NCBI GenBank assembly: GCA_026692845.1
Contig: JAPLNM010000047.1
Coordinates: forward strand, 62,001 to 126,000
DNA length: 64,000 bases
Direction of reading: 5' to 3'
Origin: Planctomycetota bacterium
GTDB lineage: Bacteria; Planctomycetota; Planctomycetia; Pirellulales; Pirellulaceae
The notes beneath the pieces are model-generated. The model made no database searches. It worked only from the letters and a program-made list of their open reading frames with translations, and was not told the DNA's origin. Shown piece after piece: positions 27,262 to 49,940 of the stretch. Position 1 is the first letter of the stretch. Every line of letters starts with the position of its first letter. The position numbers and the translations under genes are program-made.

Positions 27262-27384
27262 ACTCAGTCTCTCGCTTTTGTGGTCGTTGGGTTTCTTGCC
27301 TAAAGCCAGACCGAGATTAGAATGCGATGAAACGGACGTTTGATCTGTGAAACAAGATACCAGCCGGAACGGAACTTAGACTGC

Positions 27385-28116
27385 ATGAATGCGATCAAAC
27401 TCGCGGCGATTCTAAGTGTTTTTATTGGATCGGCATGGAACGACGAAGCCACTAATGCTGGGATGGCAACCAGCACCATCGACCAGGATGGAACCAAAAT
27501 CGGTTTCAACATGAATCGGGGCTCGGCTTCAAAGATTGGGGTTTTCGACTTCAACTTCCCGTCGGGACTTGCAGAAGTTGATTTCCTTCAAGCCCGTATC
27601 CGCTTATCGGTCCAACTTCCTCCTGAAGCCATTGGTGACTTAGCTCCGCAGATCGTGTTTGCAAAGGTTGGGACAACCAACCTGGACCAAGCATTGATCA
27701 CAGGCGACGCAATCCGAACCGACATCCGGATTTCCTACAATCTTTTTCCATCTGGTAGTGGAGTCGTTGAGAAACAAACCGATCTTGTAAATCTATCAAG
27801 GGAACAGAACTTGGCCCTCTCGGCGATACTCACGTACGATCCGAGTTCCAGAGTCGAGGCGTGGCTTGCTAGTGATTCGTTGACGGCAATAACTGTTCCC
27901 GCATCCGGACAGTATTTGGATTTGACAGGACCATTTCCGATCGTTTTTCACCAACGATTCGATTCAACCTTGGATTTAGTTTTTGTTCCGGAACCCTCCT
28001 CAGGCCTTGCTTTTGCAGGCTTCGGGTCATTGTTTTTGCTACGCGGCAGAAGATCGGTTCTGCGGCGGTGGCAGAAAACCCCAAACCAAACCACTCAGTC
28101 TTTATGTCTTTCGTGA
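27385..28116 (+). CDS. PEP-CTERM sorting-domain protein
   Basis: C-terminal 'VPEPSSGLAFAGFGSLFLLRGRRSVLRRW': PEP motif, hydrophobic segment, basic cluster, then a short extra tail. Confidence 0.8.
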   Translation: MNAIKLAAILSVFIGSAWNDEATNAGMATSTIDQDGTKIGFNMNRGSASKIGVFDFNFPSGLAEVDFLQARIRLSVQLPPEAIGDLAPQIVFAKVGTTNLDQALITGDAIRTDIRISYNLFPSGSGVVEKQTDLVNLSREQNLALSAILTYDPSSRVEAWLASDSLTAITVPASGQYLDLTGPFPIVFHQRFDSTLDLVFVPEPSSGLAFAGFGSLFLLRGRRSVLRRWQKTPNQTTQSLCLS

Positions 28117-28748
28117 ATCGCACAGTTTCTTCGTTTACCCGTTTACTGTTCTTGTTCTTGTTCCTGTTGGCCCCTTTACCTGTGTCGGCAGACATCATCA
28201 AGGAGTTCACGCAACAGTCGGGTGCAGCAGAAGACTTCGGGTCGCGAAGAGCCGTGTATCTTGGACGCCTTTTCAATGGCGTCGATGGTGGACCTTTCCG
28301 TCGAATGGACTCGATGTACGCGATCGTCACGATTGCCCAAGCGACGAACGTACAGTTATTTGCAGGCGACGGCAGTTCTAGCTTCGACAACGCGTTGGCT
28401 CAGGGCAAAATGACTGACACTGGGATTCGGGTAACGACCGTCACCCAGACCAACACAGAGGTGGTTTTTGTGCCCGGGAACCCATCGAACACACCACCTT
28501 TCAAGATCGCTGTTCCCGCAGGCGTTGCGATCCACGATTCTTTAGCCGCCAACAACCGCCTCGATTTTTGGCTCGTCGGTGCGACGAATTCCGGTTTTAC
28601 CGTACCGTCGAGCGTAGCTGGCAATGCAGCAAATTTTTTCATCCAGTTTGACCGATCGACCGCTGTGCCAGAGCCTGCGTCGTTGTTGCTAGTCGCTACA
28701 GGCTTATTCACACTTCTTGCCAGGAAACGCTTCGCGAAACCCCTGTAG
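28104..28748 (+). CDS. PEP-CTERM sorting-domain protein
   Basis: C-terminal 'VPEPASLLLVATGLFTLLARKRFAKPL'; signal peptide. ATG at 28104 lies inside the end of the previous CDS. Confidence 0.85.
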   Translation: MSFVNRTVSSFTRLLFLFLFLLAPLPVSADIIKEFTQQSGAAEDFGSRRAVYLGRLFNGVDGGPFRRMDSMYAIVTIAQATNVQLFAGDGSSSFDNALAQGKMTDTGIRVTTVTQTNTEVVFVPGNPSNTPPFKIAVPAGVAIHDSLAANNRLDFWLVGATNSGFTVPSSVAGNAANFFIQFDRSTAVPEPASLLLVATGLFTLLARKRFAKPL

Positions 28749-32676: not shown

Positions 32677-33690
32677 ATGGGTAAATCAGCATTGATTACC
32701 GGGATCACCGGACAAGATGGCTCCTATTTGGCTGAACTGTTGCTCGAGAAAGGATACCTCGTGCATGGACTCGTGCGACGAAGTTCGAGTTTCAGCACCG
32801 GACGCATCGACCACCTCTACAAAGACATTCACGAGAATCCTGGATTGCTCCTGCATTACGGAGATCTAACGGATGGACAAGCCCTGAGCAACTTGGTCCT
32901 GAACCTCGAGCCCGACGAGATCTACAACCTCGGAGCGCAAAGTCATGTTCGTGTCTCTTTCGACCAACCTGTCTACACCTTGATGACCGACGGAGTCGGA
33001 GCTTTGAATGTTCTCGAAGCGGCAAGAATCCTCAATCAGAAAAAGCCGGTACGAGTGTACCAAGCCAGCTCCTCGGAAATGTACGGAGCGGTCCTCGAAA
33101 CGCCTCAAAAAGAGTCTACTCCCTTCAACCCACAGAGCCCTTACGCCTGCGCCAAGGTCTATGCGTTCTTCCAAACGGTCAACTACCGCAGGAGCTACGA
33201 TCTGTTTGCCTGCAATGGAATCTTGTTCAACCATGAGTCGCCCCGACGCGGGGAAACCTTCGTCACGAGAAAAATCACCCGCGCCGCTACCCGAATCAAA
33301 TTGGGGCTGCAGAAAAAACTATTCCTAGGCAACCTCGATGCAAAAAGAGACTGGGGATACGCCAAGGATTATGTCGAAGCGATGTGGCTGATGCTCCAGC
33401 ATAACCAACCCGATGACTTCGTTATCGCCACTGGAAACACCTACTCGATCCGAGAATTCCTACAGATGGTCTTCTCAAAACTCGAACTAGATTGGCAGAA
33501 ATTCGTCGAAATCGACCCTCGCTATTTCCGACCAGCAGAAGTCGAACTCTTGCTCGGAGACCCCTCGAAAGCCAAGAATTCCCTCGGTTGGACCTCGAAA
33601 ACATCCTTGGACCAACTTGCATCCATCATGGTCGAACATGACCTTGAATTGGCAAAACGTGAGCAACACAACCAGTCGTTCCAACAGTAG
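32677..33690 (+). CDS. gmd: GDP-mannose 4,6-dehydratase
   Basis: '[44 protein letters not shown]', 'SSSEMYG', 'YACAK', '[16 protein letters not shown]'. Confidence 0.95.
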
Positions 33691-33717: not shown

Positions 33718-34710
33718 ATGCGCGCAGTCATCACCGGAATCACCGGCCAAGATGGTTCGTACCTGACCGACTTGCTCCTTGCCAAAGGCTATGAAGTCCA
33801 CGGAATCGTTCGTCGCAGTAGTAACCTCCAACGACCAAGGTTGGATCAACAGGTTCACGATCATTCGATCTATGGAAAGCGACTGTTCCTTCACTACTCC
33901 GACCTTACCGATACGACCTCGCTTCGACGCATCCTCAATCGTATCGTCCCTGATGAGTTCTATCACCTCGCAGGCCAATCTCATGTGGGACTGAGCTTTG
34001 AAATCCCTGAAAGCACCTGCGAATTGACCGCTATGGGAACCTTGCGTATCCTGGAAATCCTCCGAGACGTGTCCCCATCCCCGCGTTTCCTCCACGCCAG
34101 CAGCCGTGAAATTTTCGGGACACCCGTCTATGCTCCCCAAAACGAAGATACCCCGCTTAATCCAAACTCCCCTTACGGTGCCGCAAAGGCCTTTGCCAAC
34201 CAACTAGTCAAGATCTACCGCGACTCGCTCGGGCTCTTCGGCTGCAACGCGATTTGCTATAACCACGAAAGCCCCCGCCGAGCGGAAAATTTCGTCACCC
34301 GAAAAATTAGCATCGCTGCTGCCTCTATCAAACTAGGGCTCCAAAAGGAGTTGGTTCTCGGCAGTATCGATTCAACTCGAGACTGGGGTTGCGCTCCGGA
34401 ATTCGTCGAAGCCATGTGGCTGATGCTCCAGCAGCCAACCCCCAAAGACTATATCCTCGCCACAGGAAAAACGCATTCCGTTCGCGAGTTCCTCGAACTT
34501 GCTTTTCAACATGTCGGACTCAATTGGCAAGAATACTACCGCCATGACCCTAGGTTTCAACGCCCTGTCGAGCCAGAAAACCTAAGGGGTGACGCAAGCC
34601 GAGCTATGGTCGAACTTGGCTGGAAACCAAAAATTTCCCTAGCTCAACTAGCAGCGATGATGGTCGACCATGACTTGCATCGACTCAAACATTCGATGCG
34701 TCAAGAATAA
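33718..34710 (+). CDS. GDP-mannose 4,6-dehydratase paralogue (divergent)
   Basis: '[43 protein letters not shown]', 'ASSREIFG', 'YGAAK', 'NHESPRRAENFVTRKI'. Confidence 0.88.
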   Translation: MRAVITGITGQDGSYLTDLLLAKGYEVHGIVRRSSNLQRPRLDQQVHDHSIYGKRLFLHYSDLTDTTSLRRILNRIVPDEFYHLAGQSHVGLSFEIPESTCELTAMGTLRILEILRDVSPSPRFLHASSREIFGTPVYAPQNEDTPLNPNSPYGAAKAFANQLVKIYRDSLGLFGCNAICYNHESPRRAENFVTRKISIAAASIKLGLQKELVLGSIDSTRDWGCAPEFVEAMWLMLQQPTPKDYILATGKTHSVREFLELAFQHVGLNWQEYYRHDPRFQRPVEPENLRGDASRAMVELGWKPKISLAQLAAMMVDHDLHRLKHSMRQE

Positions 34711-34721
34711 CAGTGCACTGT

Positions 34722-36158
34722 CTAAGGCCCTTTCGGATCAATCGATCCGTCGCCTAGTTGCCATCGCTGCATTCGCTGATGATATTCACCCTGCTCCTTA
34801 GAAGCCTCCTGCATGAATCCAAGCAGCGGATTGGCAATTCCCATTGCCTCCTTTTCGTAACGACCGGCCTGCTCAAAGTGCCAATCTCTGGACGTATCGT
34901 CCCCTAAAAGCCCCTTGCAAAACGCAAGACTCAAATGGACCATCGGCAAATCCAAGCCCTCAACAAGCCATTGATTGAACTCTTTTTGCAATCCTAATAG
35001 CTCCTCTTGAGGCCGAAGCAAACTCCTAGCCATTACGTCTTGAACTCTCGGACTAGCACCACTGGTACGGAGAATTTTCACTAAGCAATAGGCTAGCTCT
35101 CGGAGGTCTCTAGGCTCTCTTAAGGCTGCTTCCGTTCGTCGTTCAAGGAACGCTCGATAAGCATCGATCGATTCCTTGTCACGACGGATCTTATACCCTT
35201 CGATATGGACCACCTCTGCCCTGCCCCACTCCCCGAGCATCTCATAGATGGACGTAAGCTGATTGCGGAGGGCACGATTCCATGGATCGGAACGCAATTG
35301 CTCAGCGATGCGAGCGGCCCCCGTTTTCAAAACAAACTCGCGCTCTTGGTCCTTTCCGAGTTTCTTCAACAAGGCTCCGAATCCGACACTCTGAAAGGCA
35401 TCGGCCTCCCAAACCGCCCGATACTTAGATTCCGCATCTTCCAAGCGACCATCCCAGTATGCCTTCATCGATTCGAGCACCGCCATTTGTCCAACGCTCA
35501 CCCCGGAGGCTCTCTCCAAATGCCAATCGAAGTCATCGAGAAGCTCCCGTCGCTCGGATGCATCTACCTTGGATTCCTCCAAGTTCCCTAAACACTGACT
35601 TGCTCTCCAAAAATGCGCTATCCCCAGTCCCGTCGAATCCCTCGGAGATAGACGCTCGAGAATTCGTTCGGCGGTTACTGCATTTCCATTTTGAATCTCA
35701 ACCAAAGAGTAAAGAAATTTTCGATCCGCGTTGGCAAACTCCGAATCACCAATCCACCGCATCGCAGCCCGAACTCCCCGGGATCCATCCTGCTTGGTAT
35801 AAGCATTCTGGACACGAGCAAGGTACCGGTTTAGGATCCGTTCGCGATTGAACGCAATGAGCAAAGATCCAGTGACCACGGTCAAGCCTAACAAACAAAA
35901 AGGGATACTCCAGAGGAACTGCCTTCGTCGCTGCCCACGGTAGAAAAATCCTGCGACCGGATAACTGACAAAGCTAGCGACAAACCCAAAAAATTGAGAT
36001 AGCCTACGACGCAACGCCCCGTAGATTCCAACCGGCCGATCCAAGTCCTCGAAATTTCCTCGATCCAAGAAACTCCCGAAGAACCTAAGTGCAATTTCCA
36101 AAATATCGGAAATCCAAGCGATGGTTCGTACTGGCAGATCCGCTAGGAATCGAAGCAT
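34722..36158 (-). CDS. TM-anchored TPR-like protein, partner of exosortase-like gene 1
   Basis: One TM after a roughly 80-aa N-terminal region ('FLWSIPFCLLGLTVVTGSLLIAF'), then alpha-helical repeats; 12 bp downstream of the exosortase-like gene. Confidence 0.65.
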   Translation of the reverse strand: MLRFLADLPVRTIAWISDILEIALRFFGSFLDRGNFEDLDRPVGIYGALRRRLSQFFGFVASFVSYPVAGFFYRGQRRRQFLWSIPFCLLGLTVVTGSLLIAFNRERILNRYLARVQNAYTKQDGSRGVRAAMRWIGDSEFANADRKFLYSLVEIQNGNAVTAERILERLSPRDSTGLGIAHFWRASQCLGNLEESKVDASERRELLDDFDWHLERASGVSVGQMAVLESMKAYWDGRLEDAESKYRAVWEADAFQSVGFGALLKKLGKDQEREFVLKTGAARIAEQLRSDPWNRALRNQLTSIYEMLGEWGRAEVVHIEGYKIRRDKESIDAYRAFLERRTEAALREPRDLRELAYCLVKILRTSGASPRVQDVMARSLLRPQEELLGLQKEFNQWLVEGLDLPMVHLSLAFCKGLLGDDTSRDWHFEQAGRYEKEAMGIANPLLGFMQEASKEQGEYHQRMQRWQLGDGSIDPKGP

Positions 36159-36170
36159 GGAACACCCCCC

Positions 36171-37691
36171 CTACGGATTCTTACCATCAATGGCCGCGCC
36201 GAACCGTAACTGTTGTTCGATCGCTTGGACCATTCTTGCATGGAGATCTTGTTGCTCTTTGCGTTGCTTTTGAGAAATCGGACGTACCGACTCTAGAACC
36301 AACGAAACCTGCACGAGCGGTCCGGCCAAGGAACTATCCCCAAGGACACGAATCCCCTTGGTCACCACATAACCTTCTTCAACAATCGATCGCTTCATCT
36401 CGAAGGAAGAACTACCGTTTTCGGCCGGAACCACTCGGTCGATCTTCCAGCCATACCAACGCCACAACCAATCGAGTTTTGGCAAACGTAACCAGATTCC
36501 GTCCACACGAAGCTTCATCGTCCCGTTCAGGCTTTCGGCTGGGGTCAACTCCCATTCCCGATGAGTCCAACTCGGAGTGTGTCGAAAATGAGCACTAAAA
36601 TTTTCCGCCGACTCCGTCGCTGGTCCGATCGTCCATCCCGCGACGCTCGGATCAAGCCGCAATGATTCCACAGCAGCGGTTGCAGCTGCTTGTCCAACAT
36701 CCAAACCATGGCCCCACTGATTCCTAGAGATCGACCACCCACCGAGCCCCACGATTCCCAGCAAAACGCTCCATGCGGCAAACGAAGAAATCCTCGATTC
36801 GCGGTTATCAAGATCGCTCGACAATTCATGCCCTTGGGTTTCTTTGGAACTCTCCTGATCCTTATCGTTAGCTTGGTCTGAAAACGCCGAATAGAACTGG
36901 TCTCCGCTCCAGGTAAGAAACAATACGCTCAGCATGATGACTAGCGGAAGTGCTCCTAGATCCCAACTGACCTTTGCCTCCTGCCCGTCCTGGATAAATG
37001 CGTGATACGCGATGCGCGAACCGTCGGCAACGATCGACCAGAACAAACATGCAACCAGTAAGTACAGGCAACGAAAGATTGGATACCGTCTGAAAAAACC
37101 ATAGGTCATCACCAACAAAACACAAGGATAGGTGAACCGGAGCCCGGAGCAGGCGTCATTTTCAAGGAAATCGGTACTAACTAAACCGAGCACATTCCCC
37201 TTGGCAAAGTAAAAAACCTTGCCAAGATCCAAAATCGATCCTGCAAAACTGCTCGCAAGCCATTGCCCAATCGAATGCATTTCAGGCGCCATTTTCCATA
37301 AAGCCCAGGGCACCATACTGAGCAGCAATCCCATGTGCAACAGCCGTCTCGACGAGAAACCCATCAATAACGCCATGGTTGCACTCAAACAAAACCCGGT
37401 TCCTCGCCAAACCCAAACCGCGTCATCGCTGAGAACTCCCCAAAGACTTGCGATCAAGGCAGCCAACAGAACACCAAGCAAAAATCTAGCAGGAATGCTT
37501 GGTTGGTTTGCGCTCGTCTGAGGTCCTTGGAAACCGATTCCCGTCAAAACCAAAAATGCAACCCCCAGAAGCATTACGAACAATTCGAACCAAAGCCCAG
37601 CAAAACCGATTTGATTCAAAATCAATCGAATCGCAGGAACATGGACCGCCATTGCTACCAATAGCAGCGCAACTGTGACCTTTTTATCCAT
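36171..37691 (-). CDS. Exosortase/archaeosortase-family protein with C-terminal EpsI-like extension, third catalytic residue apparently missing
   Basis: Polytopic N-half; 'ENDACSGLRFTYP' (Cys motif), 'FWSIVADGSRIAYHAF' (Arg motif), no H-x-x-x-G at the expected distance. ATG at 37691 preferred. Confidence 0.75.
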   Translation of the reverse strand: MDKKVTVALLLVAMAVHVPAIRLILNQIGFAGLWFELFVMLLGVAFLVLTGIGFQGPQTSANQPSIPARFLLGVLLAALIASLWGVLSDDAVWVWRGTGFCLSATMALLMGFSSRRLLHMGLLLSMVPWALWKMAPEMHSIGQWLASSFAGSILDLGKVFYFAKGNVLGLVSTDFLENDACSGLRFTYPCVLLVMTYGFFRRYPIFRCLYLLVACLFWSIVADGSRIAYHAFIQDGQEAKVSWDLGALPLVIMLSVLFLTWSGDQFYSAFSDQANDKDQESSKETQGHELSSDLDNRESRISSFAAWSVLLGIVGLGGWSISRNQWGHGLDVGQAAATAAVESLRLDPSVAGWTIGPATESAENFSAHFRHTPSWTHREWELTPAESLNGTMKLRVDGIWLRLPKLDWLWRWYGWKIDRVVPAENGSSSFEMKRSIVEEGYVVTKGIRVLGDSSLAGPLVQVSLVLESVRPISQKQRKEQQDLHARMVQAIEQQLRFGAAIDGKNP

Positions 37692-37735
37692 TTGACCAAT
37701 CACCGTTCAACAAAGGCTAATCCCATCGTTCAAAT

Positions 37736-37765
37736 AAAAGACGCGTCGATTAAGACGCGTCTTTT
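37736..37765. terminator. Bidirectional intrinsic-terminator-like hairpin
   Basis: Perfect 12-bp arms AAAAGACGCGTC / GACGCGTCTTTT with 6-nt loop GATTAA, in the intergenic gap between the wzc-like and exosortase-like genes. Confidence 0.75.
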
Positions 37766-37824
37766 GATAAAAAATCCCGATTCAATCTTGCTTTGCAAAA
37801 TCAACGCAACCAACTGCTGACCAT

Positions 37825-40308
37825 TTAGGATCCTCGGTCGCTCGACATGCGATCCTCGGCCCGCACCTTATCAGAATAATCCGAATACTTCTTGTCGTAA
37901 TATTTTTTGTACGAATATCCGTTGTAGTAAGCACCACGATAGTACGTTCCGTACTCATTGTAATAGAGGTTTTCGTCCATTCCGTTGACGATCACGCCGA
38001 TCAGATTCCCATTGACCATGCTCAAGCGGCTCTTGGCCTTGTGGGCCGACAGTACCACACCACGGCGAATTCGAAGTACCATAACAATTCCATCGACCAG
38101 CCCACATATCGAGGTGGCATCCGCAACGGGAATCACAGGTGGAGAATCGATCAGAATGAAATCGAATCGATTACGGAGTTCCAGGATGAACTCCAGGAAA
38201 GACTGCGATGCTACGAGCTCTCCAGGATTTTTAGGACGGCCACCTGTGGTCACCAACCAAAGATTCTTCTGAAAGTCACAGGGCCTGAGCGCCTCATCGA
38301 GCGTGCATTGTCCCTCGAAATACTGCATCCCACCGGGCTCGAATTGGACTCCAAAGTTTTGCTGAACTCGGGGTCGGCGGTAGTCCGCATCTACCAAACA
38401 CACACGCTTATTGGTCTGTGCTAACGAAAGCGCTAGATTCGCAATCGTGGTCGATTTTCCATCGCCTGGAGATGGACTTGTGAACATAAAGACCTTCCCA
38501 CCATTTTGGGCGGCCGTAAACAACAGCGATGTGCGAGCCGCCCGGAAGGACTCCGATACCGATGAATTCGGCTGGTGGGCAGCTACAAGCATGGGAGAAC
38601 CGGCAAACCCTGCAGGAACCTTAGATTTTTTAATTCTCGGTATCTTGCACAACACCGGTGTGTTGAGATTCTCCTGAATATCAATCGGTGTGCGATACGC
38701 CAGATCCGAGTGATCGATCAGCACCGCAAGTCCACAACCGAGCAAACCGCCTAAAGCCAGCCCACCGAGCAGAAATTTCCAGAGCTTCGGAAAAACTTGG
38801 CTTGGATACGAGGCTTCATCGATAATTTTCACTCGCGTCGATGAGTAAGAGTTGGACATGGCCCGCATCGCCGATAGCCGCTCTAAAATCTGTCCAACCG
38901 TGTTGCGTCGTTCTTCGATCTGATCCCTCAACATGTTCACTTCGGTGATGTCCCCTGCAATCACTTTAGACTTTTCCGTCAATTCGGCGATATCCTCCGC
39001 AATTCGATCCATGTTGTACTTCGAACGCTCTCGTTGATTCGATAAAGATGCAGCGTAGAGCTGCAAAATATCGCTGTCCCTGGTTCGAACCTCCTTGGAC
39101 AATGCAGCCGCATACAACTGCAATAATTCGCTGTCTGCGTTCTGAGTCCGCTTGGCTAACTCCTCACCTTTCTTTTCAATATCCTGTTCGCTTGTCAAAA
39201 AACCTCGTAGCGTTTCCAACTCCTGATTCAGTCGATTGCGAGTTGCCACTGCAGCCTGGTACTTCGCTTCCACAAACTCCACCTGAGGATGCTTTGCCCC
39301 ATAACGGGACATCGCCTCTGCGCGTTCGGAATCCATCGAAACAACGTCGCCATTGGCCGATTCCATTCGCTGCTCGTAACGCGTTAGCCGGAGCCTGTCC
39401 TCCTCGGACATTCCGTTGAGGAAGTCCATGCCCCGATCTTGTTTATCCAAGTTGAAGTACTTTCGCCCCTCGATGACTGCAAGCCTCAGCAGGTCATCCC
39501 TTTGGGTTGCCGGATCCATAGCAGTTCGCAACTGCTCGAGTTGCTGATCTGCATCGCGAAATTCCAAAAGGAGGTCATCTCTCTCTAATCGCAGCTTCTC
39601 GATCTCGGAAACATAAGGATTTACCCACCGCCCCTTGTCGTTCTCAGCCGTCAAATTAAGCTCTTTGAGCAACTGATAGTATCGGTCCTGATCCACCTTC
39701 TGGTCATCGACCAGCGAACGCTGCAATCGCTCAATCAACTCTACAGATTCCTTGCCAGATATCTCCGAATCCTTCTCGATCGCGGAAATATAGGAAGCCA
39801 CCACCTGGTTCAAGATACCAGGCAAATCCTCCTTGACCTTACCCTCGCAAATGATCTCCAGGGCATCGGATGAGAGATCTTTACCCACCGGCGAGATCGT
39901 CAACATATCGCGCAGATCCACAATCGGTGAGTCAACACTTTGAAACGTTGCGAGCTTGTCCAACTGGCCATTGCGGATCGCCTCGGCAAGGACCATCTGC
40001 CCGGAAAGCAGCACCCGATGCTTCTCTAAAGAAACTGCCTGCGGCACAACCTCTCCATTAATTACGCTCGGAGGGGCTTGGACAAAAAGCATCAGCTTCA
40101 TGACCGAGGCGTACACTGGTGTGACCTGAGTGTAGAGCAAGCTAGCGATCGCCGCGCCGAGCACCGACAAGAGCACAATCACAGACTTTCGACGCCATAA
40201 CGCACCGTAAAAATCGATTGTTGGCATCGGGGGTTCGTCCGATAAATTGGACCCGCGACCAATCGACCCAGAATCGTCGAAACCGTACTGCAAATTAGGC
40301 TTATCCAT
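37825..40308 (-). CDS. wzc: Polysaccharide co-polymerase/BY-kinase (Wzc-type tyrosine autokinase)
   Basis: Wzz-like N-terminus; Walker A 'SPSPGDGKST', A' 'VCLVDADYRRP', B 'FILIDSPP'; Tyr-rich C-terminal tail. Confidence 0.93.
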   Translation of the reverse strand: MDKPNLQYGFDDSGSIGRGSNLSDEPPMPTIDFYGALWRRKSVIVLLSVLGAAIASLLYTQVTPVYASVMKLMLFVQAPPSVINGEVVPQAVSLEKHRVLLSGQMVLAEAIRNGQLDKLATFQSVDSPIVDLRDMLTISPVGKDLSSDALEIICEGKVKEDLPGILNQVVASYISAIEKDSEISGKESVELIERLQRSLVDDQKVDQDRYYQLLKELNLTAENDKGRWVNPYVSEIEKLRLERDDLLLEFRDADQQLEQLRTAMDPATQRDDLLRLAVIEGRKYFNLDKQDRGMDFLNGMSEEDRLRLTRYEQRMESANGDVVSMDSERAEAMSRYGAKHPQVEFVEAKYQAAVATRNRLNQELETLRGFLTSEQDIEKKGEELAKRTQNADSELLQLYAAALSKEVRTRDSDILQLYAASLSNQRERSKYNMDRIAEDIAELTEKSKVIAGDITEVNMLRDQIEERRNTVGQILERLSAMRAMSNSYSSTRVKIIDEASYPSQVFPKLWKFLLGGLALGGLLGCGLAVLIDHSDLAYRTPIDIQENLNTPVLCKIPRIKKSKVPAGFAGSPMLVAAHQPNSSVSESFRAARTSLLFTAAQNGGKVFMFTSPSPGDGKSTTIANLALSLAQTNKRVCLVDADYRRPRVQQNFGVQFEPGGMQYFEGQCTLDEALRPCDFQKNLWLVTTGGRPKNPGELVASQSFLEFILELRNRFDFILIDSPPVIPVADATSICGLVDGIVMVLRIRRGVVLSAHKAKSRLSMVNGNLIGVIVNGMDENLYYNEYGTYYRGAYYNGYSYKKYYDKKYSDYSDKVRAEDRMSSDRGS

Positions 40309-40509
40309 ACTCGACCGCCCTTGCCCCTATGGGAGCATTTCGACCCCTGCCGTTTCCCACAGAACCCTCAAAGCTAGCTTTTCGCCATCTGCGGGTTTAT
40401 CTTAGGAAATCCAACTCCGAATGTCTACTCGAATCGGCGATTCGACCAAGCTCCCTGCAATGCAACCGGCCAAGGGCCAGCACAAAAGCCCTCATTTCCT
40501 CAAAGCTTC

Positions 40510-41256
40510 TCAAAAATACTGGTAGATTTTCCTAATGGGCTTTAGGAATCGCAGGCCAATGGGCGGCCGTAGTCCATTGACCCGCCAAGCCTTTGCATCT
40601 TCTCGGTTGGCTTGCATTCGATTCGAAAAAGACGCGTTGCTCTTGCCCCCGACCCGCATACAAACCAGAGTCTGAGCAATGTATCTCATCGGAACCCCGT
40701 GGACCATCATCATGCGAAGGAGCAACTCGTAATCAGCTGCCAATTGAAAGTCATCGCGGAACCGGCCGTACTGCACATAGCACTCCCGGCGGAAGTAAAC
40801 CGTCGGATGAGGAGGCATCCATCCCCATCGATAGTTCGATACATCGTATTTGCCAGAAATCCACCGACGCACCGTTCGGGTCGGTTCAAGGTTATCGACA
40901 TAGACCAAATCTCCGTACACTCCCATGGTGGCTCGGTCTATGGAGAACTCCTCAACGAGGCTTGCGATGACATCGCGATGGGCAAAAAAGTCATCCGCAT
41001 GTAACAGACCCACGACATCTCCGGTGGCCAATCGAATCCCTTTGTTCAACGCATCATAGATCCCATGGTCCTTCTCCCGAACCTGTCGATCGATCCGATC
41101 GCTATACTTCGAGATGATGCGATCGGTGCCATCATCCGACATGCCATCGACGACGATGTATTCGATATCGGGATAGGTTTGTCCCAAAACCGATTCGATG
41201 GTATGCGAGATTGTTTCTACTCGGTTGTATACGGCGGTGATAATCGATACTTTCAT
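40510..41256 (-). CDS. Glycosyltransferase family 2
   Basis: 'VSIITAVYNRVETISHTIESVLGQTYPDIEYIVVDGMSDDGT', 'HADDFF'. Confidence 0.92.
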   Translation of the reverse strand: MKVSIITAVYNRVETISHTIESVLGQTYPDIEYIVVDGMSDDGTDRIISKYSDRIDRQVREKDHGIYDALNKGIRLATGDVVGLLHADDFFAHRDVIASLVEEFSIDRATMGVYGDLVYVDNLEPTRTVRRWISGKYDVSNYRWGWMPPHPTVYFRRECYVQYGRFRDDFQLAADYELLLRMMMVHGVPMRYIAQTLVCMRVGGKSNASFSNRMQANREDAKAWRVNGLRPPIGLRFLKPIRKIYQYF

Positions 41257-42305
41257 AGACTACCAACCCAGTCGATCATCTGTGATAGCCCCTCGTTTGC
41301 ACTGACCCGTGGCGTCCATTCAAGCAATTCACGTGCCTTGGTGATGTCTGCCACGAAGAAATCCTGATCGCTCTGCCGACGTGGCAATCGAGAATAGCTT
41401 AATTCTTCGGATCGCTCCAGAAGAATCGAAAGCTGGTCAAAGAGTTCGATCAAACTCAAGCTATTGCTCATCCCTCCTCCGATGTTGAATACCTCGCCTG
41501 CACAGCGGCTTCGTTTTTCATAAGCACATTGGTAAAGGGAGATCAAATCCTCACTGTGAAGCACATCGCGGACCTGTTTTCCTGTCCCAGAGATCGTAAA
41601 TGGGACGACTTCGGATCCTTGTTTCCTGCAGGAAACTTGTTCAAGCGCTTGCTTGACAAACCAACCTATCCAGCCTTGATCTGCCGTAGCAAACTGCCGT
41701 CCCCCATAGATCGATGAATGCCGAAAAACTACAGTATCGAGCCCAAAATTCCTGAACCAATCGCGCACGTACTGGTCCGCACTACCCTTGGAACACCCAT
41801 AAGGTGACGCGAAATCCAAGGGCATTGTCTCGTCGATCCCATCTGGAAACTGCGCTAGGACGTACCGAGTGTCATTCTGGCTATAATCCAGGTGGCGCAG
41901 GTCTCCGTAAACTTTATTCGTCGAACTGTAGGCCACCAAGGCTTTAGGGGACCATTTCCGCGTGCATTCGAGCAGATGCAAAGTCCCCAATGCGTTGGTC
42001 CTAAAGTCCGAAATCGGATCGGCCAACGAGGTCGTCATCGCAACTTGACCAGCCAAATGGCATACATAATCGAACGGTCCACGTTTCTCGAATACATCTT
42101 CCATCCGATCGATCGATGCGACGTCGATCTCGTGAAACTCAAGATCCCGCTGCTGATTGCAGGAACCTTGAAGCCATCGGAGATTTTCCCAAGATCCCGA
42201 TTTGTACATCTTGTCGATGATCGTGACTCTTGCCCCATCACGAAGATATCTGCTAGCGACATTCGAACCTAGGAATCCGCAACCGCCAGTAATCAATACG
42301 TTCAT
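41253..42305 (-). CDS. rfbE: CDP-paratose 2-epimerase-like
   Basis: 'MNVLITGGCGFLGSNVASR', 'HLAGQVAMTTSLADP', 'YSSTNKVYGDL', 'FRHSSIYGGRQFATADQGWIGWF' match recalled RfbE sequence closely. Confidence 0.88.
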   Translation of the reverse strand: MNVLITGGCGFLGSNVASRYLRDGARVTIIDKMYKSGSWENLRWLQGSCNQQRDLEFHEIDVASIDRMEDVFEKRGPFDYVCHLAGQVAMTTSLADPISDFRTNALGTLHLLECTRKWSPKALVAYSSTNKVYGDLRHLDYSQNDTRYVLAQFPDGIDETMPLDFASPYGCSKGSADQYVRDWFRNFGLDTVVFRHSSIYGGRQFATADQGWIGWFVKQALEQVSCRKQGSEVVPFTISGTGKQVRDVLHSEDLISLYQCAYEKRSRCAGEVFNIGGGMSNSLSLIELFDQLSILLERSEELSYSRLPRRQSDQDFFVADITKARELLEWTPRVSANEGLSQMIDWVGSL

Positions 42306-42348
42306 TACACTGCTCTTGTCATTTGATCTGTATTCAATTCAGAGATTT

Positions 42349-43830
42349 TTACTTGCCACGACAAAAAGTTACGATCGTCGTGATCACATAATCGATCATT
42401 TCCTCGGACAGACCAGGATATGTTCCGATAAAAAGCGCTTCATTCATGATGCGATCTGAACCTGATAAATCGCTGACGACCCGAATCGAACTGGGATTCT
42501 CTTTGCGTAGATTTACAAAAGCAGGCTGCCTGAGTAGATTCCCTCCGAAGAGCATCCTGTTACCGATCAACTTGGAATCCAAGTGCTTGGCCAATTCCGT
42601 CCGCGTGAAACCCGCCGTGGGCCTAACTGAAATCTTGAATCCAAACCAGGAGCATTCCGTTCGGCAACCCGTAGAGTCCCAGGAGAAACCACTGGCAGGA
42701 TCCCAACCGGCCGCATGGGTCGGTAACGAAAACTCCAGAACATCCTCCAATTCCGACAAACCACGCCGGAGCCGGATCCAATTGTGCTTCCTTGCCTCGA
42801 TAAAACGATCAAGCTTTTCGAGTTGCTTGAGTCCAATCGCTGCCTGGATATCCAGTGGCTTGAGGTTGTAGCCCAAGTGGCTGTAGATGTATTTATGGTC
42901 ATACCCCTCAGGCAGTTCTCCAAGTTGCCATCCAAAGCGTTTATTGCAGGTATTGTCTTTCCCAGAAGGGCACCAGCAATCTCTACCCCAATCCCGAAAA
43001 CTCTCCACAATCACCTTAAGCCCCGATTGCTTGACAACGTTCACTGCCCCGCCTTCCCCCAAGGTCATGTGATGCGGTGGATAAAAACTTTGTGTCGACA
43101 GGTCCCCCCAAGCCCCCGTGTACTTGCAAAGACTTCCGTCGCCTTGCGCAGGATCCTTCGGAAACATCTGCCGCCAGTCCGAATTCGATGGCATCGTATA
43201 CTTGCACCCAAGCGCATCGCAGTTGTCTTCGAGAAGCCAAAGCTGATGCTCGCGGCAAAATTCCAAGGTTGTTCGCAAATCGAACGGATTTCCCAATGCA
43301 TGGGCCATCATCACCGCTTTGGTCTTGCCCTTGCAAAAAGCATCCTGCAATTGTTCGCATTTCGCATTCCCCGTGATTGGATCTGCATCGATGAAAACCG
43401 CAGTCGCTCCGCACTGAAGGATAGGTGCGACCGTCGTAGGAAATCCCGCCGCGACCGTGATCACCTCGTCTCCGGGAAACAATCGCCGGTCCCTAGGCAA
43501 TTTTGGACTGGTCAATGCAGATATCGCAAGAAGATTGGCACTCGAACCAGAATTCACCAAAAGCGAATTCCTAACCCCCAGAAACTCCGCCAACGAACGC
43601 TCAAACCGTTCGCCCTCGGCACCGAGCGTCAACCAAAAATCCAATACGCTACCGACCGCCGCTTGGACCTCGTCCTCGGTGAACACACGCCCTGCATAGG
43701 GAACCGGGGTTTGACCAGGGATGAATTCCGACCGGCCGGAATCGTCCCCAGCACGATTTGCGCGGTGTGTCATTCGCGAATATTCACCGACAAGCCTACT
43801 GATCTCCTGCCGCAGTTCCTGAGCATTCAT
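42349..43830 (-). CDS. rfbH: CDP-4-dehydro-6-deoxyglucose 3-dehydrase (E1, PMP/2Fe-2S)
   Basis: 'STQSFYPPHHMTLGEGGAV' (His in place of the usual PLP Lys) and 'RDCWCPSGKDNTC' Fe-S cysteines. Confidence 0.94.
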   Translation of the reverse strand: MNAQELRQEISRLVGEYSRMTHRANRAGDDSGRSEFIPGQTPVPYAGRVFTEDEVQAAVGSVLDFWLTLGAEGERFERSLAEFLGVRNSLLVNSGSSANLLAISALTSPKLPRDRRLFPGDEVITVAAGFPTTVAPILQCGATAVFIDADPITGNAKCEQLQDAFCKGKTKAVMMAHALGNPFDLRTTLEFCREHQLWLLEDNCDALGCKYTMPSNSDWRQMFPKDPAQGDGSLCKYTGAWGDLSTQSFYPPHHMTLGEGGAVNVVKQSGLKVIVESFRDWGRDCWCPSGKDNTCNKRFGWQLGELPEGYDHKYIYSHLGYNLKPLDIQAAIGLKQLEKLDRFIEARKHNWIRLRRGLSELEDVLEFSLPTHAAGWDPASGFSWDSTGCRTECSWFGFKISVRPTAGFTRTELAKHLDSKLIGNRMLFGGNLLRQPAFVNLRKENPSSIRVVSDLSGSDRIMNEALFIGTYPGLSEEMIDYVITTIVTFCRGK

Positions 43831-43931
43831 CGTTCTCGAACCCACTTCTTTCGCTCAAATCTCAATTTGATATTTCCAATACTGTTTCATCGCGTCGTGA
43901 GGTTTCCGATCGCGACGGATTGGCTGAAATC

Positions 43932-45041
43932 CTATCCTAGGGTCCACGCCTGCTTGAGCGTCCGTGCGTCTTGAATGTATCGCTCGATACATTCTTGCGT
44001 GACAGCCTGAGGATCTAAACCAGCCTGAACGGCCTGATACCAAGTCGCAGTCTTTTCGATGCAAGATTCGAATGTCCAAGTAGGCTTCCATCCCAAAATA
44101 TGATAAGCCTTATCAATCGCGAGATTCAGTCGAGATGCTTCGTGGGGCTCCGATAGATTCGAAGCATCGATCCAGGTCCCGCCGGTATGGTTTAGAAAAC
44201 TCTCGACCAATTGGCAGACACTGCGATTGCTTTCAAGCTGCGGGCCAAAATTAAACGCCGAACACAAAAGCTCCGTGTCATATCCACAATTCTTAGGTTG
44301 AGCTAGTTGGGAAGCTAGCCACAGATAACCCGAAATCGGCTCCAAAACATGTTGCCATGGCCTGGTCGCTAGCCGATTTCGAACCGATACCGGTGTGCCT
44401 GACATCACGGATCGAACGATATCCGGCACGATTCTCTCGGGTGCCCAATCGCCACCCCCAATCACGTTTCCCGCACGAGCAGACGCCACCCGAACCGAGG
44501 AATCCGCCCCGGAAAAAAACGACGATCGATAGGCCGCCGTTACCAACTCAGCACATCCCTTCGAGGCACTGTAGGGATCGTAGCCACCCATCGGATCTTC
44601 TTCTCGATAAGCATGCAGCCACTCTTTGTTCTGGTAGCATTTGTCTGTCGTAACAATCACAACCGAACAGGGTTTGGAGTATCCGACAAGAGCCTCAAGG
44701 AGATTGACCGTTCCGAGCACGTTGGTTTCAAAGGTTTCACGAGGCTTGCGGTAGGAAGCTCTCACCAAGGGCTGCGCTGCAAGGTGGAATACAAAATCGG
44801 GCTGAGTGCTCAAGATGGCTTGTGTCAAAGATCTTGAGTCCCGTACATCTCCATGACCGTCGCACTTTATCGAAGACGCTAATCGCAACTGATCGAAAAG
44901 AACTTCATGCGACTGTGGCTCAAGCGAATACCCAAAGACCTTCGCACCCAAGGCGACCAACCAAGCAGTTAACCAGCTCCCTTTGAAGCCGTTATGGCCG
45001 GTGATGAAAACGTTTTTTCCCTCAAACAGGTCATGAAACAT
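43932..45041 (-). CDS. rfbG: CDP-glucose 4,6-dehydratase
   Basis: 'GKNVFITGHNGFKGSWLTAWLVALGAKVFGYSL', 'VIVTTDKCYQNKEW', 'YSASKGCAELV'. ATG at 45041 preferred; the longer ORF overlaps rfbF. Confidence 0.95.
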   Translation of the reverse strand: MFHDLFEGKNVFITGHNGFKGSWLTAWLVALGAKVFGYSLEPQSHEVLFDQLRLASSIKCDGHGDVRDSRSLTQAILSTQPDFVFHLAAQPLVRASYRKPRETFETNVLGTVNLLEALVGYSKPCSVVIVTTDKCYQNKEWLHAYREEDPMGGYDPYSASKGCAELVTAAYRSSFFSGADSSVRVASARAGNVIGGGDWAPERIVPDIVRSVMSGTPVSVRNRLATRPWQHVLEPISGYLWLASQLAQPKNCGYDTELLCSAFNFGPQLESNRSVCQLVESFLNHTGGTWIDASNLSEPHEASRLNLAIDKAYHILGWKPTWTFESCIEKTATWYQAVQAGLDPQAVTQECIERYIQDARTLKQAWTLG

Positions 45042-45042
45042 G

Positions 45043-45828
45043 TTAGTTTTCCCAAATCTTCCAAGGCGCTTTGCCCGTTTCCCAAAGCTGTTGCAACTCG
45101 TTGCGATCCCTGAGTGTGTCCATCGGCAACCAAAATCCTTGATGCCTATATGCCGCAAGCATCCCTGATGCGGCCAAGTCTGCAAGTGGCTGACGCTCCC
45201 ATACCGTCTGGTCTCCCTGCTGGATGTAGTCAATGGCCGATGGCTCCAACACAAAGAAACCGCCATTGACCCAGGCCCCATCCCCTTCAGGCTTTTCCTG
45301 AAATACAGAGATCCTAGTCGGATCATTTCTGCTGAACGACAACGCACCGTATCGCCCTGGAGGCTGAACCGCCGTCAAGGTTGCCGTCGATCCGCTGTTT
45401 TGATGAAACGCAATGAGATCCTTGATGTTGATATCCGCGACCCCATCGCCATAGGTCATGCAAAAGGTTCCTTGACCAAGAAACGGCGCAACCCGCTTTA
45501 ACCGACCACCGGTCATCGTCGCGTCCCCGGTGTCGACGACCGTCACCCTCCAGGGCTCGGCTTTTTTGTGAAGCACCTCGACGGTATTGTTGGCCATGTC
45601 GAATGTCACATCGGACATGTGAAGGAAATAGTTCGAAAAATATTCCTTGATCATGTATCCTTTGTAACCGGCACAGATGATAAAATCGTGTATTCCAAAA
45701 GTTGAGTATATCTTCATGATATGCCATAAAATGGGCATGCCTCCGATCTCGATCATCGGCTTGGGCCTCAGATGGGTCTCTTCTGAGATCCGCGTTCCCA
45801 ACCCACCCGCAAGTATCACTGCTTTCAT
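45043..45828 (-). CDS. rfbF: Glucose-1-phosphate cytidylyltransferase
   Basis: '[42 protein letters not shown]', 'TYGDGVADI', '[10 protein letters not shown]'. Confidence 0.97.
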
Positions 45829-45855
45829 CGCTTTCCCTCCGGACTCATACCCTGC

Positions 45856-47496
45856 CTACTTCGTCGCATGTTCAAAGCTAGACTGTTTCCTGGCTTCCTC
45901 AAGCAAGCCCTCAACGAACTTCCCGTTCGACGAATTCGTACCGATTTTCTCGAGATAACTGATGGCAATATCCCACTTTTGAAAACCCATCGACAAAACC
46001 GCCGCCCCAATCTTCAAATCGAAACTCTGAGGATGTGCTTGATTGAACGACTCGCAAATCGTCTCGAGCCTTGCCCATTCTAGCGTTCTTCGACGACTCG
46101 CTTGGATCCAGTATGCCAGCAAGCCGACCAATCCATCGATATCTCTGTCGGACCACTCGGGCATCGCCTCGCCCGCTTTCGGCAGAAACTCCGCTGGGCG
46201 TTGCATAATCTGCTTTGTCCATTCCAAGGCCACAAGAAACGTCTCTGGGGTGCCAGTCGTATCTACCCGAAGAAGCTCCACCAAGGGGTCTGAGCCCTGG
46301 TCCTGCCCTAGGGAGTTCTCATCGTAGTATTGATCCAATAATCGACGGACCTCGGGATGATCCGATCCGAATCTGAGCATGGATCGAAGAAGAGCACCAA
46401 CCGGTAAATCTCGATGAGCTCCCTCGGGAAAAACGGACTTGGCTACCAGAGCGCGAAGTTCGCTCGCCACGACGGTATGCCTTAGCGATTGTTGATCCTC
46501 AGGGAGTATCTGGTCGATGCGTGTCAGAACCGATGTACTGGCTTCCTCGATGCCCGAGACCATCATCAAACATCGAAAGAATGCGTCGATCGCTTCGATC
46601 TTGGTTTCGCTCGACCAATCGACGCTCATGCGTTGCATGATCGGGGAATACTCCACAATCGCCGTTCTTGCCTCTCGGACCGCTCGCTTTGGATCCATAC
46701 TAGCAAGCCCCTCGACCAACCATGCCTTAGTGATCAATCTTCTTGGATTGCTCGTATCGATCGGAATGCTATTGCTCAGACTCGATTCCAAACATGCAAT
46801 CCCTGACCGCAGCTTGATTTCCCGCTGCGTTGCTTCCAAAACCGGTGATGCTCGATGTGCAAGCTGAATATCTACTGAACCTAGGATTTCGTCGAGCTCG
46901 ACCGCTTTCATGCCGATCGATAGTTGCTCGGCGCGATCCATCATCGATTGGATCTGAGATTCCTCGACTCGGCAACTTTGCCTTAGCCTCAGCAGATCGC
47001 TTCGCAAAATGTAAAACTTCGCCCAGATCGCATCCGGTCCTTCGAGTCGAGTCGCGCTGCGAATCGACTCGAAGGCGCGATTCTTCGATACCATAACAAA
47101 CTCTTTTAATCGCTTGCTATCCTCGCCCACATTGGGTTCGTTAGCTAGTATTCGTCCACCAACTCGATCGATCTCCGAGGCTACTTCCGCATGCATGCGG
47201 CGATAGCGAGCTTCCGTAGGCGAATGAACCATCAGTCGCTGCGCGGCAAGCTCCGCTTTCTTCATGCTTGTAAACCACTCTAACGAATCCATCGCCAAGT
47301 TGGCATTTGGGTCTGCTTTCAACTCGAAAGCTCGCGCCTGAATTACCATTGTTTCATACCGGCTTAAAATCCTCGGCTCGACAAAAAAATGACTCATGCC
47401 CATCGCAACTAGGGTGACGCCCCCCAGTACCAATGAAGGAACTCCCCATCGCCAATAGGTTTCCGGTGTCTCTGGAAGCTCGTTACTTTGAACCAT
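45856..47496 (-). CDS. TM-anchored TPR-like protein, partner of exosortase 2
   Basis: N-terminal TM 'WGVPSLVLGGVTLVAMGMSHFF', then long helical region; overlaps the exosortase stop by 14 nt. Confidence 0.65.
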   Translation of the reverse strand: MVQSNELPETPETYWRWGVPSLVLGGVTLVAMGMSHFFVEPRILSRYETMVIQARAFELKADPNANLAMDSLEWFTSMKKAELAAQRLMVHSPTEARYRRMHAEVASEIDRVGGRILANEPNVGEDSKRLKEFVMVSKNRAFESIRSATRLEGPDAIWAKFYILRSDLLRLRQSCRVEESQIQSMMDRAEQLSIGMKAVELDEILGSVDIQLAHRASPVLEATQREIKLRSGIACLESSLSNSIPIDTSNPRRLITKAWLVEGLASMDPKRAVREARTAIVEYSPIMQRMSVDWSSETKIEAIDAFFRCLMMVSGIEEASTSVLTRIDQILPEDQQSLRHTVVASELRALVAKSVFPEGAHRDLPVGALLRSMLRFGSDHPEVRRLLDQYYDENSLGQDQGSDPLVELLRVDTTGTPETFLVALEWTKQIMQRPAEFLPKAGEAMPEWSDRDIDGLVGLLAYWIQASRRRTLEWARLETICESFNQAHPQSFDLKIGAAVLSMGFQKWDIAISYLEKIGTNSSNGKFVEGLLEEARKQSSFEHATK

Positions 47497-49108
47497 TGGC
47501 TCGCTGACTCCTGACGATCCCTAGAGCACTGGCCGATTGGGAGACGATCTGCTGGCGATTCTCCATAAAAATCCGGCGTAAATCCCCCATTTGCACATCC
47601 GTTGGCAATGCGCTGGTGTACGCGATCTGCTGGAACTGAAAAGTCATGGGTTCATGCGATCGATCGCCAGGCCGCTCACGGTTTAAAATATTGTTCGTCC
47701 ACCGCCCGGCTTGCCTGCGAAACTCGACGGATCCCTCATACTTATAGGGATGTCCTTGCTGGTCGAAAAGCGAAAAATGCAGGATCGCAAGATCTCCAAG
47801 ATCGTTTTTCAAAACAGTTTCAAAGAAGGAGGTTCCGTCTGTTTCGATCAATTCGGACCTCTCCCTTTGCCATCCGGAATTGATGTAACATTCCCAGAGT
47901 GGATGCCAACCCCGAAATGGGAAATCCAGGCATACGGTCAATCGCCCAACATCGCTCGAAAGCTCCCAAATACGCGAATGCTGACCCAACATGTCGTTGC
48001 GATCACGGTATGCGGTATGAAAGCCGACCAACTGCGAACCGCTCGGCGCGACCAAGTCCGATGCTCCTGGAAATGCACCCGACTCGTCTTGCGTGATGCT
48101 CGGCAAATCAGAATTCGCATGGAATTCCATCACCGCCCGGACGCTCACCGGAAGAAAAACGAACAAGCTCAATGGCAAGACAGCCCAACGAAAGCTGATT
48201 CGACCAAAGGAGATCGGGTTGCCGGCATTGCTTGCTTTGGACGCATTGAATTCTGTCGAAATTTGCCTTCTGGAAACCCACCTCAAATGTAGGAAATTGA
48301 GCAATTGAACCGAACTCCAATGGACCCATGCGGTAAATGCGAAAACGCCCAACCCCAAAAAAATATGAGTCGTCCCATGCGACAAATCCACGCCGAACCA
48401 CTCTAAACCTAGGACAATTAAATAGATACGCAGCAGATTTCCCAATATCGCCCAGATCGGGACCGTAACGATCGTAACCAGGCTAACCCACCAAGTAGCC
48501 TGCCCAATAAGAAGCAAAACTCCGGCGACGGCCATCAGCGCATACTGACTGTCGACCCCACTACAGGCTTCCTCAACAAACAAAGGCTTGCTAGGAACCT
48601 CGATGATATTGCCACGCCGCACGTGTACAATATTCGTTAAATCCATCAGGCGGCTGCAAGCAAAGGAGGATAGTGATTGCAATCCATTGATAAGTCGCTT
48701 GTCCCATCCCAAGGGCGCAGGCAAGGTAACCACGAGCAATCCACAAATACCCACAATTCGCAGGATACTCAGACCGGGTCTTGCGACTAGAGCCCATGCA
48801 CCCACGATCGTGATCGCTACGAAATGTGCAAGCCAGGGGCTTCCATAATACAATGCCAGTAACGCCAACAGCATCGAAAAAACCCATGCTCCGAGCGCCC
48901 ACGTACGAAGATTTTCGTTTCCTTTTAAATCTTTACTTTCACGAAAAAAGTATACCGATGCAGCCACAGCCAACGGAAAAAACTGCAAATGCGGCTTTTG
49001 CATCAGGATGCAGCATTGCATGTAAAGAAGCGGCGACAAAGCCACCAATGGCAATACCAAGCCGATCCAAGTCCATCGATTCAGGCGTCTTGGGCTATCG
49101 ATCGACAC
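47483..49108 (-). CDS. Exosortase (planctomycete type, XrtU-like) with EpsI-like C-terminal domain
   Basis: 'LFVEEACSGVDSQYALMAVAG' (Cys), 'PIWAILGNLLRIYLIVLG' (Asn/Arg), 'SHGTTHIFLGLGVFAF' (His). XrtU label from memory. Confidence 0.9.
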   Translation of the reverse strand: MSIDSPRRLNRWTWIGLVLPLVALSPLLYMQCCILMQKPHLQFFPLAVAASVYFFRESKDLKGNENLRTWALGAWVFSMLLALLALYYGSPWLAHFVAITIVGAWALVARPGLSILRIVGICGLLVVTLPAPLGWDKRLINGLQSLSSFACSRLMDLTNIVHVRRGNIIEVPSKPLFVEEACSGVDSQYALMAVAGVLLLIGQATWWVSLVTIVTVPIWAILGNLLRIYLIVLGLEWFGVDLSHGTTHIFLGLGVFAFTAWVHWSSVQLLNFLHLRWVSRRQISTEFNASKASNAGNPISFGRISFRWAVLPLSLFVFLPVSVRAVMEFHANSDLPSITQDESGAFPGASDLVAPSGSQLVGFHTAYRDRNDMLGQHSRIWELSSDVGRLTVCLDFPFRGWHPLWECYINSGWQRERSELIETDGTSFFETVLKNDLGDLAILHFSLFDQQGHPYKYEGSVEFRRQAGRWTNNILNRERPGDRSHEPMTFQFQQIAYTSALPTDVQMGDLRRIFMENRQQIVSQSASALGIVRSQRANGSK

Positions 49109-49940
49109 CCAAACCTCCTTCGTGTTCCTGCTGGCGTAACTCTCGGATCTTCAACGCGATGAGATACTCATAGATGGAAAGCAATCGGCAATAGTGATAT
49201 CCTGGAAGTCCATCGAGAAATCCTGCTTTGACAATGTACATATAGACAAAGCGTAGAAATCCTCTGCAGGGCATTCGAAAGGATAGTTCCTTCAAGGCCA
49301 AGCGACGCGAGGATGGATCGCGAAACTGGAAAAGGTCTGTCCAAGGCACCTTGCGGTGCTTCAAACTTCGAAGCGATTCAATCGCCTCATTCGTCGAGTA
49401 TTTGTTGTGCTTGTCAACCCAGGCGGCTAGTCCTTTGCGGAAGCTATAATGATGGAAGTGTCCATTGAGCTCTCCAATCTCCCCTCGTACCACAGGAGTG
49501 CAATTGACCATTCGCTCCCATTGCACGTTCTGCGGACGATAGAATCTTAACACCCACACGGGATAAATACCACAGTGTTTGATCCAACGGTCCATAAAGT
49601 AGTTTTTGTATCGCAATCGATAAGCTACATACTTGTTCGTTTTGTCCGACGCGATCGATTTCATTTCTTCGGTCAGATCCCAGGGGAGTACTTCGTCAGC
49701 ATCTGAACAATAGACCCAAGGATACTTGTACTCGATCTGTGTACCCGCCCAATTCAGTTGGGCTGATTCGTTGTCAAATTGGCGTTGGATCACACGGCAA
49801 CCGGCCTCCTGCGCGATCTGGACTGTTCGATCCGTACTTCCCGAATCCAGAACTACAATGTCATCGCACCAAGAAAGAGACGCAAGGCAATGCGGCAGAT
49901 TCACCTGTTCGTTTAGGGTTCGAATCAAAACCGAAATCAT
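49095..49940 (-). CDS. Glycosyltransferase family 2 (WaaE/KdtX-like)
   Basis: 'ISVLIRTLNEQVNLPHCLASLSWCDDIVVLDSGSTDRTVQIAQEAG', 'SDADEVLP'. Confidence 0.92.
   Translation of the reverse strand: MISVLIRTLNEQVNLPHCLASLSWCDDIVVLDSGSTDRTVQIAQEAGCRVIQRQFDNESAQLNWAGTQIEYKYPWVYCSDADEVLPWDLTEEMKSIASDKTNKYVAYRLRYKNYFMDRWIKHCGIYPVWVLRFYRPQNVQWERMVNCTPVVRGEIGELNGHFHHYSFRKGLAAWVDKHNKYSTNEAIESLRSLKHRKVPWTDLFQFRDPSSRRLALKELSFRMPCRGFLRFVYMYIVKAGFLDGLPGYHYCRLLSIYEYLIALKIRELRQQEHEGGLGVDR

Follow-up and report, generated by a model that had tools for sequence, protein, structure and literature searches.

Exosortases were reportedly proposed in 2006 as the Gram-negative counterparts of sortases. Members of the EpsH family carry the motifs Cys-x-Gly, Asn-x-x-Arg and His-x-x-x-Gly, and their active site is predicted to lie on the periplasmic face of the membrane (PMC1569441). 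PrsT (TIGR02917) is a TPR protein correlated with the XrtA/PEP-CTERM exosortase system; it has a lipoprotein signal, is co-profiled with PrsK/PrsR in Proteobacteria and is found near epsH in 3 of 13 cases (PMC1569441). EpsI (TIGR02914) is a second component that is adjacent or fused to EpsH exosortases (PMC1569441). TPR superhelices also serve envelope proteases of another kind: the lipoproteins LbcA and NlpI bring substrates to the C-terminal processing proteases CtpA and Prc, respectively, and activate them (PMC8764530). The XrtU family and the PrsT protein of the XrtA system were already known, and the XrtU-linked TPR partner described here was previously unnamed. In the openly licensed literature we found no paper that names XrtU or describes such a partner, which does not prove that none exists.

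We analysed a window of 64,000 nucleotides from a Pirellulaceae genome (contig JAPLNM010000047.1), which contains two of the three exosortases of this genome. A sequence-only reading of the window had described two exosortase genes, each directly followed by a gene for a large TPR-like protein with a single transmembrane (TM) helix. All four open reading frames were found again on the minus strand in this order, and the longest frame of exosortase 2 starts at 37703, not at 37691:

47483..49108, minus strand: exosortase 1, XrtU type, 541 aa; PF09721 E 5e-26, 92 bits against a cut-off of 25.7
Residues 357-526 of exosortase 1: C-terminal XrtU domain; NF033780 103.6 bits against a curated cut-off of 40
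45856..47496, minus strand: TPR1, 546 aa, one TM helix near residues 21-39; divergent member of the XrtU-partner family
36171..37703, minus strand: exosortase 2, 510 aa, very divergent XrtU lineage; PF09721 E 3e-10, 40.5 bits against a cut-off of 25.7
34722..36158, minus strand: TPR2, 478 aa, TM helix near residues 85-103, predicted TPR superhelix from about residue 125; member of the partner family

TPR1 lies directly downstream of exosortase 1 with a 14 bp overlap, and TPR2 directly downstream of exosortase 2 after a gap of 12 bp. Exosortase 1 scores far above the cut-off of the XrtU C-terminal model (NF033780), which is matched by 45 of the 47 surveyed exosortases of its kind. Exosortase 2 has no match to this model at E <= 1, although its core domain falls among XrtU-type exosortases in the tree. 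Close named relatives of the XrtU genes are from Rhodopirellula, Stieleria and similar genera. TPR2 shows weak TPR similarity (PF14559, E 0.0066), and TPR1 has no match in Pfam or NCBIfam.

The surrounding genes show that this is an exopolysaccharide (EPS) locus with sugar-nucleotide genes, and candidate substrates are encoded within the window:

37825..40308, minus strand: Wzc-like polysaccharide co-polymerase/tyrosine autokinase, directly upstream of exosortase 2; TIGR01007 137.6 bits against a cut-off of 108
42349-45828, minus strand: CDP-3,6-dideoxyhexose cassette between the modules (glucose-1-phosphate cytidylyltransferase, CDP-glucose 4,6-dehydratase, RfbH)
49095..49940, minus strand: family 2 glycosyltransferase, directly upstream of exosortase 1 with a 14 bp overlap; PF00535 E 2e-11
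27340..28116, plus strand: possible exosortase substrate with a weak C-terminal PEP-CTERM match; PF07589 E 0.009, 16.5 bits, below the cut-off of 20.7
28068..28748, plus strand: likely exosortase substrate, PEP-CTERM protein; PF07589 25.7 bits against a cut-off of 20.7, TIGR02595 above cut-off

The window also holds a tandem of GDP-mannose 4,6-dehydratase-like genes on the plus strand (32677-33690 and 33718-34710), the second scoring just below the curated cut-off. PEP-CTERM proteins occur elsewhere in the genome, which has 15 PF07589 matches at E <= 0.1, and several genomes whose sole listed exosortases are of the XrtU type encode dozens of them. One genome (G001) has the exosortase-TPR pair, yet no recognised PEP-CTERM protein. 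PEP-CTERM proteins are the likely substrates of XrtU.

To see how general the gene order is, we ran PF09721 against 100 genomes from this family and fetched the neighbourhoods of the exosortases among the matches listed. Commonly, the next gene on the strand of an exosortase of about 550-670 aa encodes a protein of about 460-680 aa that has a single clear TM helix, at whose start stands a W..(G)(I/L)PA(L/M) motif. A partner HMM was built from 32 such downstream proteins with the genus of the window excluded; it matched TPR2 at 3.9e-32, together with many other proteins. In the 100 genomes the partner is directly downstream of 42 of 70 evaluable XrtU-like exosortases and fused to one more (among the matches listed), which leaves about 40% of XrtU-type exosortases in this survey and among these matches without an adjacent partner. 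None of the 10 XrtA-like exosortases among the matches listed has one. Since the HMM was made from adjacent genes, there is some circularity in the adjacency counts for the proteins that went into it; this applies less, or not at all, to the tests that left out the genus, took in another class or named genomes, or looked at unlinked copies. A scan of named genomes, one per species, took in Rhodopirellula, Stieleria, Neorhodopirellula, Roseiconus and Verrucomicrobia MAGs and found 58 of 77 evaluable XrtU relatives adjacent to the partner and four fused to it. Partner-family matches fetched from genomes across the class lie directly behind an exosortase in 16 of 20 cases, and the same partner stands beside XrtU genes in another family of the class, elsewhere in the phylum and on Verrucomicrobia MAG contigs (L261, L264, L294 and L302). 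Each genome has only a few members of the TPR family among thousands of genes, so the chance of such adjacency is about one in a thousand. The commonest gap between the two genes is -4 bp, a spacing typical of translational coupling; genes were called mechanically and some starts are surely too early, so that some overlaps look too large. Both modules recur in two genomes of the same genus. In G010 they are about 10 kb apart and in the same order, with a Wzc-like gene directly upstream of the exosortase 2 relative there as well (synteny, L066). In G074 they are found on different contigs, and the end of a contig cuts off the upstream neighbour of TPR2. In two relatives from the genus of the window, L066 (18573-20000) and L068, a further gene of the TPR family follows TPR2.

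XrtA-like exosortases of about 350 aa (L070, which is G000:C20 in the window's own genome, and L159-L165) have a neighbourhood of another kind. The next gene encodes a protein of about 750 aa that looks Wzz/GumC-like by eye, and behind it, contig permitting, there is often a gene for a protein of 1240-1530 aa, several of which show TPR-type similarity.

The two TPR proteins of the window are themselves related, although this was visible only at the level of profiles. The sequence-only reading had pointed to a shared N-terminal signature. This signature is indeed the top BLASTP segment between TPR1 and TPR2, with 37% identity over 38 residues, but its E value of 0.011 in a single comparison makes kinship, as seen by eye and in pairwise alignment, suggestive only. 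TPR1 escaped the first partner HMM even at E <= 10, and a profile of four TPR1-type sequences gave an hhalign value of 97.5 against the partner family, no better than against other TPR proteins (98.6 for giant TPR proteins). Two additional TPR1-type proteins came from Pirellula-type MAGs, where they are encoded two genes behind exosortase 1 orthologues in the same gene row. With these six sequences hhalign reached 98.7 over 434 columns including the TM helix, against 65 for giant TPR proteins, and the six-sequence HMM gave 33 further matches at E <= 0.01, all of them members of the partner family (best 1.2e-14). We assigned proteins to the family by a profile match in which the N-terminal TM motif and the TPR region are collinear, as is found for both TPR1 and TPR2, for TPR1 by the profile of its group only. 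Proteins of the TPR1 type also lie downstream of exosortase 1 orthologues in G010, G074 and G059. Judged by profile, TPR1 is a very divergent branch of the partner family, tied to the exosortase 1 clade. Both the profile alignment and the neighbourhood survey that the earlier reading had proposed as checks therefore came out in its favour: the two TPR proteins share significant profile similarity, and the exosortase-TPR adjacency recurs in other genomes.

The association extends beyond neighbouring genes. Across the 100 genomes and among the matches listed, 44 have both an XrtU-like exosortase and the TPR family, two have only one of them, two only the other and 52 neither (p 2e-23). Each of the two is thus present in 46 genomes, of which 44 also have the other. 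The association persists when unclassified and partial exosortases are taken as XrtU (p 4e-16 among the matches listed); both p-values overstate the number of independent events, because genomes of the same genus are not independent. The TPR family is not associated with XrtA-like exosortases in the same 100 genomes among the matches listed (p 0.23). Trees of 40 exosortase-partner pairs have 23 of 37 splits in common, against a maximum of 3 in 2000 random pairings, and only 2 of 4608 reassignments of partners within genomes reach 23 shared splits, the true pairing being one of the two. In the correlation of distance matrices the true pairing ranks 73 of 4608 within-genome reassignments, which is moderately decisive; the shared splits are clearer. 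In genomes whose exosortase has no neighbouring partner, an unlinked TPR protein falls into the clade predicted by that exosortase (G059/G098, G051/G096 and G038, and further G012, G027, G029, G049, G067, G093 and G095). Moreover, in five proteins the exosortase core is fused to the TPR protein, whose own TM helix is kept (L147, L260, L283, L296 and L298), and in four of the five the E-x-CSG catalytic motif is intact.

Recurrent adjacency, unlinked co-occurrence, tree congruence and fusions together support the pairing well, and we consider a functional partnership of exosortase and TPR protein very probable. The suggestion that the TPR protein is an uncharacterised exosortase partner is borne out by the 42 adjacent genes and one fusion among 70 XrtU-like exosortases (among the matches listed). 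Some family members have no nearby exosortase, including two in the window's own genome:

G000:C140:26352-27764 (L071): TPR-family copy without a nearby exosortase
G000:C35:78014-79423 (L072): TPR-family copy without a nearby exosortase

Relatives of these copies are present in G010 and G074. Such exosortase-free members imply that part of the family has another role or acts in trans on exosortases encoded elsewhere.

The partner family differs from the components of the described systems. In 27 of 30 partner members TIGR02917 detects TPR-type similarity at E <= 0.001, but neither partner in the window matches this model at E <= 1, and both have an N-terminal TM helix and no lipoprotein signal. 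Unlike PrsT, members of the partner family are anchored by a TM helix, stand directly behind XrtU, share the XrtU tree and fuse to XrtU. EpsI is not described as a TPR protein, and XrtU has a C-terminal domain of its own, with the TPR protein as an additional component. LbcA and NlpI are lipoproteins of C-terminal processing proteases, whereas here a TM-anchored TPR protein accompanies a multi-pass exosortase; the resemblance is one of fold only, and we claim no homology beyond the TPR.

The confident AlphaFold2 model of TPR2 (pLDDT 84.1) starts with helices at the N terminus, which are followed by the TM helix and then by a TPR superhelix, and its Foldseek matches are TPR superhelices including OGT, P58IPK and LbcA (7rqf). 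The TPR1 model is all-helical and poor (pLDDT 56), too poor for a fold search. Charge bias around the TM helix of TPR-family proteins counts 29 for and 25 against an N-in orientation, which is not decisive. In the fusion L147 a basic linker joins the exosortase core to the TPR TM helix; this is weak evidence, which hints that the L147 linker may be cytoplasmic and the TPR domain periplasmic. The TPR2 fold resembles peptide- or protein-binding superhelices, LbcA among them, and a TPR adaptor anchored beside an exosortase whose active site is predicted to be periplasmic would fit. We propose by analogy that the TPR protein is a membrane-anchored adaptor dedicated to XrtU, comparable to NlpI for Prc and LbcA for CtpA, and give this reading a probability of about 0.55. 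Each module would then consist of an XrtU-type exosortase and a dedicated TPR protein in the inner membrane, anchored beside the exosortase by its one N-terminal helix. The superhelix would bind the exosortase and gather or present its substrates, PEP-CTERM proteins retained through the C-terminal helix, or else would activate the enzyme, and the pairs would specialise as each exosortase lineage keeps its own adaptor lineage. Physical contact, the periplasmic side and the adaptor role are inferred.

The best surviving alternative, though an unlikely one, is that the TPR protein is a scaffold tying the exosortase to EPS export by Wzc-like proteins and glycosyltransferases, coupling protein release to polymer export and having no part in substrate choice. 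Exosortase 2 and its G010 relative do lie directly behind a Wzc-like gene, orphan family members (L074.3, L076.6 and L085.3) occur near such genes, and the window is itself an EPS locus with sugar-nucleotide genes. Most modules, however, have no adjacent gene of Wzc size while the exosortase link recurs, and the fusions join the TPR protein to the exosortase; we saw none to a Wzc-like protein. We find it improbable that the TPR protein acts only in the assembly or stability of the polytopic XrtU, without touching the substrate. Such a factor would give the same pattern of co-inheritance and fusion, and the pairing does persist where the exosortase has lost its catalytic Cys, but a long TPR superhelix kept in lineage-specific pairs exceeds the needs of an anchor, and XrtA-like exosortases do without an adjacent one. 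That the two proteins act independently and are neighbours merely through common membership in EPS loci is very improbable: both do sit in such loci, and exosortase-free TPR copies exist, but clade matching and co-occurrence are seen for distant genes as well, translational overlaps are frequent, and several genomes have fusions.

The earlier proposal of an ancestral module duplication within one EPS locus held only in part. The TPR proteins are homologous by profile, but the exosortases belong to separate lineages. Exosortase 1 groups with proteins of G010, G074 and G059, and exosortase 2 with a different set, which includes proteins of G010, G059 and G098; its clade with L066.11, L073.4, L137.3 and L144.6 has 100/100 support. 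A tree that forces both lineages into one clade is rejected (AU p 7.8e-5), and with it, at the level of these trees, duplication of one module within the EPS locus. Because the branch of exosortase 2 is long (2.59), its separation from the exosortase 1 clade is more certain than its precise position; the BLASTP match between the two exosortases (E 6e-5) is too weak to argue from. G059, from another genus, has both module types on different contigs. By these trees the modules are ancient paralogous units from separate old XrtU lineages that share one locus in this genus. That module 2 is a recent degenerate copy of module 1 made within the locus is most improbable. The same gene order and locus and a fast-evolving exosortase 2 that lacks the conserved His would fit such a copy, but exosortase 2 groups at 100/100 with proteins of other genera and the rejected joint clade refutes it at the level of the tree, with caution for the long branch.

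The two exosortases also differ in their catalytic residues. Exosortase 1 has all of the putative ones (C182, N-x-x-R227 and H248-x-x-x-G). Exosortase 2 keeps C185, G187 and R230, but D227 replaces the Asn and the His of H-x-x-x-G is absent, so that it lacks the full Cys, Arg, His triad. Its relatives L066.11, L137.3 and L144.6 (G010, G059 and G098) have lost the same His and kept Cys and Arg. Given the loss of the His, the activity of exosortase 2 may be altered or absent, and without this third catalytic residue the two modules may differ in their job. The full triad is present in 52 of the 61 paired exosortases; six lack the Cys (L141.4, L143.5, L145.1, L148.5, L155.4 and L191, homologues that keep the downstream TPR partner) and three have the Cys but lack Arg or His. 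As some paired exosortases lack the Cys, the pairing is not only about catalysis and outlives it in some lineages. Retention of the TPR partner where the exosortase lost its Cys, in several lineages, or its His, as here, raises the tentative possibility, on balance doubtful, that non-catalytic exosortase-TPR complexes receive tagged proteins at the membrane or gate their export and do not work as proteases. An exosortase and an exosortase-like gene also occur in tandem (L118 4675-8440, L140 5497-9173 and L115 3623-6959); the second copy lacks the Cys in L118 and L140, and the TPR partners are encoded at other sites of the genome, frequently two in tandem.

Partners kept after the loss of catalytic residues offer a natural test for a non-proteolytic role of exosortases. 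More broadly, a TPR protein that is co-inherited with its exosortase, matches it in the tree and is sometimes fused to it is a concrete missing component of one whole exosortase class, and it points to a missing part of a protein-sorting machine that is itself still unproven.
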